The notes beneath the pieces are model-generated. The model was not told the origin of the DNA, made no database searches, and worked only from the letters and a program-made list of their open reading frames with translations. A DNA stretch of 40,283 nt from Myxococcales bacterium. GTDB lineage: Bacteria > Myxococcota_A > UBA9042. Each line of letters starts with the position of its first letter. Positions within the stretch are counted from its first letter, which is position 1. The stretch spans positions 1 through 40,283 of the forward strand of contig JAGSHB010000033.1 of assembly GCA_023954815.1 (NCBI GenBank). Direction: 5' to 3'. Positions 36,535 through 40,283 of the stretch are shown one piece after another. Position numbers and translations under genes: made by a program.

Positions 36535-38502
36535 ATGCACATGCAACGCCTCCTGACTGCCGGCCTCATCTTGGCGACCACCGCCTGTATGACCGACCCG
36601 CACACCACCCTGCCTGACGACACAAATTCGGTGCGCTATCGCTCGGTGATCATCAATGCCGACAAGTGCCTACGGAAAGACATGTCCGTAGGGGACTGCA
36701 GCTCAGTGAAAGTCGAGGATCGGCAGCGCGTGGACGAAATGCGTGGCGTCATTGGTGCGCCGTTCCGGGCGGTCAGCCAAGATCCTGATTCGGTCATGCA
36801 AAAGCAGTCCTACGACAAGCTGAGTGCATTCTGGTCGCGTATCCCAGTCGGCTACGGCTGCGAATTCACCATGCAGGGCGTGTTCCCAGACGGCACCAAA
36901 GATCCGAACGACATCAAGAACTACAACTTCGACAATCTCGACAAGCTTATCGGCGCCGTTCGCACAGCCTACCGCGTCCCGCTGTGGACAGCTGCCTATG
37001 GCCTAGGCGACGGCAAGGGCGCGTCTGGCAAGAGCAGCTGCAAGTACGGAAACGCAGGGATGAGCGACGAAGGCAAGGCGGTGGCCGAACAGCTCGGTAC
37101 GCCAATTCCAAAGTCCGACAAAGAGATTGCCCGCTGGGCGCAAGCCGTCCGTCGTGTCACCAAGTACTACAACCGTGAACTACCGAAAAAGTTCAAGGAA
37201 AACGGTCTCTGCAACCCGCAAGGTGGCGCCGCCAAAGATTGGAAGTGCAGCCCCAGTCTCTTCAACATCGAGTTTGGCCGTGATCCCAACGGCGCGGGTG
37301 GCTTCACGAAGGCGACCCAGGAGACGTGGCTCAAGAGCTACAAAGCCTTCGCAAAGGAATTGCGCGAGGAGTTTCCCTACCCGGGTAATGACGTGCTCCT
37401 CTTTGGCCCTTCCGTCGTCATCCGCAGCTCTGCGGAAGCGAGTAACACCAAAGTCGGCGCCCCCAACCGCTCGTGGCTGTACGCCTTCATCGACTACGTG
37501 GTGAAGGAGAAGCTGCCACTGAGTGTGCTCTCGTTCGAGGTCGAAGCAGCCAGCCCTGTTGAAGCACGGGACATCGCCAAGTCGGTGCGCAACTACGCCG
37601 ATGCGAAGGGACTAAAGGACGAAAACGGCAAGCCAATTCGTCTCTTTGTCACGGACCTGCGCCTGAACGAAGCCAATGTCCCTGCGACGCTACGCCAAGA
37701 TCATGCTCGCTTTTCGACGTTCCAGGGGGCCTTCTACGCCGCTACGAAGATTCTCTGGCAGGGCTACATCTATGGCGCAACCGTGGGCCGCGTGGTCCGC
37801 TTCCCCACGCAGGATGCCAACGTCGTCCCTCCAGTAGAGCTTGCTCAGACCGCACTCAACAGCGATTTGCTGTGGTTCGATCAACCCAAGGAGTTTGCCG
37901 ATGCCGGCACGCTCAAGCCGGGCGCCTGGCACTCTTTCTGGTTCAACAGAGACTTCCTCGGTGGCGGTGGCGGCGAACTCGACGGCTGCACCAAGGCCGG
38001 TGGATGCACGGATGTCGCAGCTAGCAAGCGCGCGAAGGGCATGGTCCAGGTCATTCAAGGTCCCGACGCAGCCGGGCTCTCCGGCAAGGTCCAAAAGGGC
38101 GATGAAGTCAGCGGCCTCATCGCGCTGGCGACGCGCGAAAACTGTGTCTCTGGCGACGTCGACCAGCTCGGCCAGCCGATTGATTGCGTCTCTGGCGACA
38201 CGCCGTTCCCTGACGTGACCGACAACCGTCAGCGCGTTATTCGGGCAATGGTCGCAAATCTGAACGTCGATGCCCCCGCCGCGAAAGAAATCTTGATTCA
38301 CAAGCTGCGCATCGAGGTCAACGGCCTACCGTCTGACGTGAAAACCGTTGGCTATCGTTGGGCGCGCATGGACGGCACCGCGCCGAGTTGGTTGTCGTTC
38401 ATCTTCCCAGAGCAAGGCGTCGCTGACGTGCACGACGGCAGCTTCCACCTCCAGCGTGATGTGGCCGTTCCGTCGATGCACTACTACGAATTCTTGTACT
38501 AG
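36535..38502 (+). CDS. Large lipoprotein resembling a GH39-type glycosidase barrel
   Basis: A 655-residue lipoprotein with lipobox TTAC (Cys18). The middle (residues about 100-450) follows the order of a clan GH-A, GH39-like barrel. It has a strand FNIEFGRDPNG where the acid/base NEP motif would sit, a helix TWLKSYKAFAKELREEFPY, LLFGPSVVIRSS, then RSWLYAFIDYVVKEKLPLSV and LSFEVEAASP. The strand RLFVTDLRLNEA falls where the nucleophile TEW would be, and a helix FSTFQGAFYAATKILWQG follows. Both Glu positions appear to be Asp. The C-terminal 200 residues look beta-rich. This is an inferred fold, not a recognised family. AAGGA seven bases upstream supports ATG 36535. It is the third gene of the Kelch lipoprotein and kinase run. 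Confidence 0.65.
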   Translation: MHMQRLLTAGLILATTACMTDPHTTLPDDTNSVRYRSVIINADKCLRKDMSVGDCSSVKVEDRQRVDEMRGVIGAPFRAVSQDPDSVMQKQSYDKLSAFWSRIPVGYGCEFTMQGVFPDGTKDPNDIKNYNFDNLDKLIGAVRTAYRVPLWTAAYGLGDGKGASGKSSCKYGNAGMSDEGKAVAEQLGTPIPKSDKEIARWAQAVRRVTKYYNRELPKKFKENGLCNPQGGAAKDWKCSPSLFNIEFGRDPNGAGGFTKATQETWLKSYKAFAKELREEFPYPGNDVLLFGPSVVIRSSAEASNTKVGAPNRSWLYAFIDYVVKEKLPLSVLSFEVEAASPVEARDIAKSVRNYADAKGLKDENGKPIRLFVTDLRLNEANVPATLRQDHARFSTFQGAFYAATKILWQGYIYGATVGRVVRFPTQDANVVPPVELAQTALNSDLLWFDQPKEFADAGTLKPGAWHSFWFNRDFLGGGGGELDGCTKAGGCTDVAASKRAKGMVQVIQGPDAAGLSGKVQKGDEVSGLIALATRENCVSGDVDQLGQPIDCVSGDTPFPDVTDNRQRVIRAMVANLNVDAPAAKEILIHKLRIEVNGLPSDVKTVGYRWARMDGTAPSWLSFIFPEQGVADVHDGSFHLQRDVAVPSMHYYEFLY

Positions 38503-38729: not shown

Positions 38730-39536
38730 ATGCAGCGTGTAAAAGTTGCCGTCGTCCAGCTGCGGTCGACGGAAGATGTGACCGACAATCTTCGCCAGGC
38801 GGACATCCAAATTCGCGGTGCCGCTGCCGACGGTGCTCGACTTATCGCGGTCCCCGAAAACACCGGTTTTCTCAAGACCGGCAATGGCGTCGACGCCGGA
38901 GAGCCACTCGAAACAAGCGCCGTTGTCACCCACATGCGCGCGCTGGCATCGGAGCTTGATGTTGCGCTGCTGCTTGGTTCGTTTCACAAGGCGAGCGCGG
39001 AGCCAACCCGAGCGTACAACACCTCCGTAGTCATCGATCGCACCGGTCAGATCGTGACCACGTACGACAAGATCCATCTGTTTGACATCGATGTGCCAGG
39101 GCAGGTCACGTTCAAAGAATCCGATGACATCATCCCCGGCACGCAGCCAGTGATCGCGGATATTGAAGGCATGCGGCTTGGCCTGAGCATCTGCTACGAT
39201 CTCAGGTTTCCAGAGCTCTACAGAAAACTCGCCGAAGCAGGCGCCGAAGTGATCACCGTTCCCGCCGCCTTCACAGCTCAAACCGGAAAAGCCCACTGGG
39301 AAGTCCTCTTGCGGGCCCGCGCGATCGAAAACCAATGCTATGTACTCGCGCCGGACCAGTGGGGAATCCACGGCGGCAAACGTCACTCCCACGGCGACTC
39401 CATGATTATTGATCCCTGGGGACAGGTCATCGCAAGAGTCTCTGATGGTGTTGGCTTTGCCTGTGCATGGCTCGATCCGGACCGTCTAGACAGCGTCCGA
39501 CGCAACCTTCCTTGCGCCGACCACCGTCGGCTGTAG
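38730..39536 (+). CDS. Carbon-nitrogen hydrolase (Nit1-like amidase)
   Basis: Cytoplasmic nitrilase-superfamily amidase of 268 residues with the catalytic triad Glu43 (AVPENTGF), Lys114 (TYDKIHLFDID) and Cys155 (LSICYDLRFPELYR). The YDKIHLFD and CYDLRFPELYR motifs and the late RARAIENQCYVLAPDQWG block match the Nit1 branch, which includes deaminated glutathione amidase, a metabolite-repair enzyme. Omega-amidase (Nit2) is the alternative. GGAG at 38720-38723 sets the ATG. It stands alone, 227 bases after the large lipoprotein, in a gap where I see no terminator or other gene. Confidence 0.92.
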   Translation: MQRVKVAVVQLRSTEDVTDNLRQADIQIRGAAADGARLIAVPENTGFLKTGNGVDAGEPLETSAVVTHMRALASELDVALLLGSFHKASAEPTRAYNTSVVIDRTGQIVTTYDKIHLFDIDVPGQVTFKESDDIIPGTQPVIADIEGMRLGLSICYDLRFPELYRKLAEAGAEVITVPAAFTAQTGKAHWEVLLRARAIENQCYVLAPDQWGIHGGKRHSHGDSMIIDPWGQVIARVSDGVGFACAWLDPDRLDSVRRNLPCADHRRL

Positions 39537-39672
39537 GCCCCGAAACTACAACAGACACTGTGGTCATGCCCGCTCATGGCCCGCTCGGGTTTCGACCTCA
39601 AGGACCCCCATCAGGTGCGCCTTGCAGCGCCTCCGCTTGATCGCTTGGCGCAATCTCCGTACCGTAGAGGAT

Positions 39673-39705
39673 AGAGGTCGCCCTCAATGTGACCTCTGGG
39701 AGGTC
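39673..39705 (+). promoter_or_regulatory. Mutually exclusive hairpins covering a ribosome binding site
   Basis: AGAGGTC (39673-39679) can pair with GACCTCT (39691-39697) across 11 bases. The same GACCTC (39691-39696) can instead pair with GAGGTC (39700-39705) across three bases. The second stem buries the GGGAGG ribosome binding site (39698-39703) of the small Cys gene at 39708, and the first stem would free it. This is the geometry of a translational on/off switch, but the stems are short and chance is possible. Confidence 0.35.
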
Positions 39706-39707
39706 TC

Positions 39708-39935
39708 ATGCACGCCAGAAAGCCCCGTCCTGACGGACGCCCCGATGAGACGAGCAAGCGCCCTCGCCGGTTGCTTTTTGAGAGCTTCCGCTGTGACAAG
39801 CGCAGCATTGACCTGAAAATGCACGAGTGTATGACCGACTTCGTCAACGCCAATGCACTTCGTAATAAGACGTCACCCTGCCACAACTGTACCGTTGGAC
39901 AGGAAAACCGAACGCGATTTGCCAAGCTAGGCTAG
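39708..39935 (+). CDS. Small four-cysteine protein, possible zinc binder
   Basis: A 75-residue basic protein with cysteines at 29, 41, 58 and 61. The second half reads HECMTDFVNANALRNKTS, then PCHNCTVGQENRTRFA. The CxxC pair followed by G-x-x-N-R and FA is reminiscent of small zinc-binding proteins with a C-x-C-x-x-G-x-x-NR-x-x-FA ending, which I recall only loosely. A strong GGGAGG ribosome binding site lies four bases before the ATG, which argues that it is real despite its size. It stands alone between the nitrilase gene and the rRNA operon end. DNA or RNA binding is possible but unproven. Confidence 0.6.
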   Translation: MHARKPRPDGRPDETSKRPRRLLFESFRCDKRSIDLKMHECMTDFVNANALRNKTSPCHNCTVGQENRTRFAKLG

Positions 39936-40146: not shown

Positions 40147-40191
40147 CAAAAACGAAACGACCCGCGCAAGGTTTGCACCTTGCGCGGGTCA
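40147..40191 (-). terminator. Intrinsic terminator of the rRNA operon
   Basis: A perfect 14-bp stem, left arm 40160-40173 and right arm 40178-40191, with loop TTGC. On the transcribed (-) strand the stem is followed by GTTTCGTTTTTGC. It sits about a dozen bases after the 5S rRNA 3' end, as expected for the end of an rrn operon. Confidence 0.85.
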
Positions 40192-40203
40192 TCTCGTTAA
40201 AAG

Positions 40204-40283
40204 TTCCGGCAGCGACCTACTCTCCCAAGCGGTTACCCACTAAGTACCATCGGCGCAGGAGGGCTTAACTTCCGAGTTCGGGA
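40204..40283 (-). rRNA. rrf: 5S ribosomal RNA, 3' part
   Basis: The reverse complement of the right edge reads as the 3' two-thirds of a bacterial 5S rRNA. It contains CCGAACTCGGAAGTTAAGC (loop B and helix III), GCCGATGGTAC (loop E and helix IV) and GGGAGAGTAGGTCGCTGCCG (helix V and helix I). The 5' part lies beyond the window. The 23S and 16S genes should follow further right, because the operon is transcribed right to left and ends here. The exact 3' end is estimated to within a few bases. Confidence 0.93.

Follow-up and report, generated by a model that had tools for sequence, protein, structure and literature searches.

Two competing predicted hairpins in the leader of a small four-cysteine protein gene from an uncultured myxobacterium-like bacterium

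The stretch of DNA analysed here ("the window") is a contig of 40,283 nucleotides, JAGSHB010000033.1 of assembly GCA_023954815.1 (Myxococcales bacterium), from an uncultured, myxobacterium-like organism. At its end, a small gene sits between a nitrilase-family gene and a converging 5S rRNA. The open reading frame of 75 codons that a preliminary description reported there, for a 75-residue protein with four cysteines, is real; its leader is designated L001. The features of the region are these:

38730..39536, plus strand: upstream gene for a carbon-nitrogen hydrolase of the nitrilase family (PF00795, E 3.7e-58)
39637..39642, plus strand: predicted -35 element TTGATC, from a promoter pattern conserved in orthologues
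39660..39665, plus strand: predicted -10 element TACCGT, from the same conserved promoter pattern
39672..39698, plus strand: left (5'-end) stem-loop, 10 bp in the predicted fold, by shuffle test and both-sided changes
39687..39709, plus strand: predicted right hairpin over ribosome binding site and start codon, from folding and from pairs in orthologues L003 and L002
39698..39703, plus strand: ribosome binding site GGGAGG, from sequence, 4 nt before the ATG
39708..39935, plus strand: gene for the 75-residue four-cysteine protein (C29, C41, C58, C61), by open reading frame and homologues
40151..40198, minus strand: terminator-like hairpin of the converging rRNA operon, predicted from sequence
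40204..40283, minus strand: 5S rRNA, cut by the contig end and converging on the small gene (RF00001, 60.7 bits)

Farther upstream, at 36535-38502, the window encodes a 655-residue protein without a Pfam match, the like of which was also seen by eye upstream of the small gene in orthologue L002.

A lack of homologues would have told against the preliminary description, and the small protein has many. Matches (E up to 0.01) occur in 48 of the 52 genomes of its class, its own included, with two copies per genome the commonest number. When 235 genomes were drawn from the phylum, at least 45 of them listed as belonging to the window's class, 42 gave a match at 1e-6, all in that class and none outside it. 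Alignment of 57 members, selected from 108 hits, shows seven invariant residues (F27, C29, C41, C58, C61, G64 and R68), all of them present in the window protein, whose cysteines are spaced C-x11-C-x16-C-x2-C. Searches of Pfam, NCBIfam and PHROGs yield nothing better than E 0.05 for the family (the best stray Pfam match is Zn_ribbon_Elf1, at E 0.05 in one of 18 members), and a sequence search of the PDB nothing better than 0.95, to antibodies. Two structure models, with mean pLDDT of 70 and 77, consist of a beta hairpin and two helices and place C41 and C58/C61 near helix starts, an arrangement that may reflect a metal site; comparison of both folds with the Protein Data Bank gives no convincing match. 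WhiB-like and other small four-cysteine proteins are likewise small and basic with four cysteines, but the window protein differs from them in its cysteine spacing, in having no Pfam or NCBIfam match and in having no confident fold match. Neighboring genes were considered as a clue to function; some are conserved within paralogue groups but pointed to nothing usable.

The closest orthologues are L002, L003 and L004, from the same genus as the window gene, and L005, from another genus of the family. A nitrilase-like frame precedes the gene in four of the five (L001, L003, L004 and L005, not L002), as called by Pfam for the window gene and by eye from translations for the other three. L002 to L005 lie near contig ends, consistent with an adjoining rRNA operon, the rRNA itself being seen only in L001. 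All five carry the promoter pattern CTTGNNN-N17-TACNNT before the gene, a pattern found in 2 of 295 background leaders and in 6 of 102 other family members. By sigma-70 consensus the window promoter is weak, and the promoter scanner does not report it. Transcription beginning downstream of 39680 would have undone the arrangement first described; the conserved promoter predicts a start upstream of that point, near 39672 (about 39671-39673), and hence places all of the arms within a leader of about 36 nt. Measured from the -10 box, the leaders of L001 to L005 are 42, 41, 40, 24 and 54 nt long, respectively.

In the leader, GAGGTC, GACCTC and GAGGTC occur in series just as had been noticed, so that the middle arm can pair with the left one over 7 bp or with the right one over 6 bp, the latter burying GGGAGG. 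The left arm, AGAGGTC, lies at 39673-39679 (core GAGGTC, 39674-39679); the middle arm, GACCTCT, at 39691-39697 (core GACCTC, 39691-39696); and the right arm, GAGGTC, at 39700-39705, ahead of the start codon ATG at 39708-39710. All 7 bp of the left pairing are Watson-Crick, and the predicted fold extends them to 10 bp (39672-39681 with 39689-39698, with U-G at the base). The right pairing, GACCTC with GAGGTC around a TGG loop, is longer than earlier described: folding adds an AUG/CAU clamp (39687-39689 with 39707-39709), set off from the 6-bp helix by a U-U mismatch, that extends the hairpin over the start codon as well. Sequence and predicted folding together describe two mutually exclusive helices, one of which hides the ribosome site.

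The predicted balance between the two states depends on the length of RNA folded. Folding was started 7 nt after the -10 box, and the length after the AUG was set at 3, 12 or 21 nt. With 12 nt, the left and right states come to -17.1 and -15.8 kcal/mol in L001 and to -18.0 and -17.6 in L003, staying within 0.6-1.3 kcal/mol (L001) and 0.4-0.6 kcal/mol (L003) of each other across assumed starts. With 3 nt, the corresponding values are -15.3 and -15.7 in L001, and -16.2 and -13.6 in L003, the left state being ahead by about 3 in the latter. With 21 nt, they are -20.4 and -16.6 in L001, where the left state leads by 3-4 kcal/mol, and -18.1 and -17.7 in L003, where a start one base earlier favors the right state. 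In L002 neither state is preferred with 3 or 12 nt, and its own left stem is favored with 21 nt (P 0.80-0.92). The "switch geometry" of the preliminary description is thermodynamically plausible, by these models, in the window and in L003; a switch is possible, and one relative lends it some support.

Such a series is rare. When an exact three-arm series is required whose right arm falls on the ribosome site, arms of at least 6 nt arise in 25 of 20,000 dinucleotide shuffles that leave the final 14 nt of the leader untouched, and in 3 of 10,000 if only the final 12 nt are kept. Among 296 background gene starts (taken from the window and 100 fetched loci by a crude rule for reading frame and ribosome site, and including at least one family member, L045), none has a series of 6 or more and two have a series of 5. 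Three of 107 family leaders reach 6 or more, and two of these, L104 and L139, are GC-rich and unrelated to the window, which counts against uniqueness. The left hairpin alone folds at -14.5 kcal/mol versus a shuffle mean of -4.7, with 0 of 2000 shuffles as low. The longer stretch 39655-39730, whose fold is the left state, is not more stable than its shuffles (z -0.07).

Of the single elements, the front stem-loop has the best support. Compared with 2000 shuffles each, it folds better in three of the five orthologues, the window counted (L001, 0/2000; L003, P 0.0135; L005, P 0.0185); in L003 and L005 it is built from other sequence, and the L005 hairpin is a different one. The left stem of L002 has only 5 bp and is no better than shuffles (P 0.13), and L004, with a leader about 18 nt shorter, has no hairpin (P 0.36). 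When L001 to L003 are aligned beginning at the arm, pairing is possible in 17 of 18 cells, and two of the six left pairs have changed on both sides; with three sequences and no statistical power, the covariation score of the left helix is reached by 39 of 500 shuffles and the count of both-sided changes by 142 of 500.

The conservation anticipated for the arms is found by half, since the full three-arm form occurs only in two of the five orthologues, the window and L003. L004 has a series of 4 nt only, upstream of its predicted start, and L005 has none of 4 nt or more. The pairs of the right hairpin are kept at 9 of 9 positions in L003 and 4 of 9 in L002, for 22 of 27 cells in all, although 287 of 500 alignment shuffles do as well for this helix (again three sequences, without power). 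Although L003 and the window differ in 20 of the 40 leader columns that align, all three arms of L003 sit almost where those of the window do. In simulations that substitute bases at random at this rate and hold the ribosome site constant, all six right pairs survive in 1.2%; the figure applies to the right hairpin alone, because the MAFFT alignment behind it misregisters the left arms by one column. Shuffling the L003 leader apart from its final 12 nt recreates its 5-nt series in almost the same position in 0.35% of cases. At one position, the T, A and T of the window's left, middle and right arms are C, G and C in both L002 and L003.

Starting from the observed arms, their rarity and their partial conservation, we propose, with a probability of roughly 0.4, that the leader is a translational rheostat without an aptamer, that is, a 5'-end stem-loop that in two species could rearrange into an OFF hairpin; the position of the transcript start, the fold adopted in the cell, the switching and its trigger enter the model as suppositions. 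Transcription from the gene's own conserved promoter would begin near 39672 and yield a leader of about 36 nt, in which the stem-loop 39672-39698 would fold first, leaving the ribosome site free and probably shielding the 5' end of the RNA. The gene would thus be ON by default, by virtue of the front stem forming first. Two species, the window's and one relative, have a 3' stem arm that doubles as a complement of the ribosome site, and an AUG in the stem's loop that could pair with the CAU at the start codon. Opening of the front stem, its shortening from the 5' end, or a factor that binds and keeps it open would release the 3' arm to close the start site.

The strongest competitor, in our estimate nearly as likely, is a plain 5'-end stem-loop that stabilises the message, as 5'-end stem-loops do for other bacterial mRNAs (the ompA type). 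The complementarity of the 3' arm to the ribosome site would then be incidental, because a 3' arm that pairs with a left arm containing GAGG is necessarily, in part, complementary to a ribosome site. The wider retention of the left hairpin (beating shuffles in 3/5, versus 2/5 for the right) and the dominance of the left state in longer L001 folds fit this explanation. Like such stabilisers, the window's stem-loop is predicted to start at about +1 and leaves the ribosome site free; it is unlike them in that its 3' arm can, in two species, pair with the ribosome site. Incidental complementarity is also at odds with the two bases beyond GAGG, which are equal in the left and right arms of both L001 (TC/TC) and L003 (CT/CT), and with the AUG clamp, which both leaders keep.

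The palindrome just after the -10 box could instead act as DNA, an operator bound by a repressor, presumably as RisR-type sites are in sister genes. Myxococcus xanthus RisR is reported to be an Rrf2-family [4Fe-4S] repressor of isc and suf whose footprint site is T(t/g)GAC-N7-GTCC(t/a) (PMC9973013). A perfect GGAC-N7-GTCC lies within 130 nt upstream of 25 of 106 family genes versus 2 of 293 background genes, often just after the -10 box and about where the window's hairpin sits. None of these 25 leaders is in the window's own genome, where the two family genes found (the window gene and L040) both lack the site. The window gene's best approach to it in 39560-39707 has 2 mismatches of 8; moreover, the half-sites of the orthologues vary (GAGGTC, GAGGCT, GTGGCA), as does their spacing by 1 nt, whereas the sister leaders have an almost invariant GGACC/GGTCC, and a G-U pair in L003 suits RNA. 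We consider an operator at the window gene unlikely.

A scan of 14 genomes for TTGA-N28-38-GGACC-N5-GGTCC finds 26 places, versus 8 for the reversed pattern: 10 family leaders, one such palindrome on the other strand, two sites before sufB, and 13 others, most of which look by eye like chance. The sufB sites, one in the window's own genome (L151/L171, G000:C285) and one in G003 (L153/L173, G003:C37), have GGACC-N5-GGTCC behind a TTGACA promoter and directly before the gene. L151 is identified as SufB by SUFBD_core (E 7.9e-81); the 150-residue piece taken from L153 has no Pfam match, the same gene being SUFBD_core in the genome search (G003:C37). The gene sufB is found in nine of the 14 genomes, with no SufB match in the other five, and the perfect site stands at sufB in two of the nine (G000, G003). 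In G026 a one-mismatch site lies near the frame start, and in G023 a site with a mismatch lies about 700 nt upstream; the sufB genes of G002, G025, G037, G048 and G050 have no site in the upstream stretch examined. The one Rrf2 gene found in the window genome, L183 (G000:C74:21784-22167), has cysteines in its C-terminal half and is a candidate RisR counterpart; the stretch examined around it shows no operator belonging to it beyond a one-mismatch site within the frame. The same promoter-operator pattern also precedes a NifH/frxC-like ATPase (L159, G015:C80; Fer4_NifH E 1.8e-46) and a cysteine-rich repeat protein (L154, G048:C270).

The resemblance to the M. xanthus RisR system lies in GGAC-N7-GTCC sites behind promoters, at sister paralogues and at sufB in the window's own genome; the differences are that the window gene has no site and that a RisR protein binding such sites in this class is putative. 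It would appear that sister paralogues of other genomes do have a redox linkage, transcriptional in kind and acting through the RisR-type operator. Family leaders with a consensus promoter have a median fold z of -1.25 (n = 49), versus -0.03 for background leaders (n = 21, including the family member L045). A 5'-hairpin habit of the whole family was considered and rejected: the RisR-type palindrome is present in 10 of the 14 family leaders whose z is below -1.5, and the better folding is therefore no evidence for RNA hairpins. In another branch of the family, of MPQK type (L052, L053, L055, L085 and L089), a TTGACA promoter is followed near +1 by hairpins of differing sequence, of which only that of L053 is clearly better than shuffles (z -1.95).

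A fuller version of the rheostat proposal, to which we would give long odds, makes the leader a minimal aptamer-free bistable RNA in which the 5'-end stem-loop serves to prevent sequestration. It would be operated either by the cysteine protein or by an RNA-binding partner, sensing the iron-sulfur or zinc state of the cell, and the family, specific to this class, would have its other members under a repressor of the RisR kind.

A metal- or metabolite-binding riboswitch, an idea prompted by two alternative pairings around the ribosome site in front of a gene for a cysteine protein, is scarcely credible: with E up to 1, nothing but 5S rRNA in 38000-40283 matches Rfam, and what lies between the arms is not conserved. 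A switch with a ligand domain was set aside on these two grounds, and the metal- or redox-linked translational control first proposed for the window gene has no support. Very small aptamers of described kinds exist, and size alone would not exclude one, but with about 36 nt in the leader the arms probably leave an aptamer little space. PMC10907184 describes translational riboswitch leaders whose hairpins exclude one another; like them, the window leader has one arm with two partners and one state that hides the ribosome site, and unlike those described there it is about 36 nt in all, with no ligand domain found.

If the leader switches, it shows how little RNA suffices for a translational switch. 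The protein family is a firmer gain than the leader: four cysteines, presence in 48 of the 52 genomes of its class, and one branch with a RisR-type operator. This suggests that the family is an unrecognised part of iron-sulfur or metal homeostasis.
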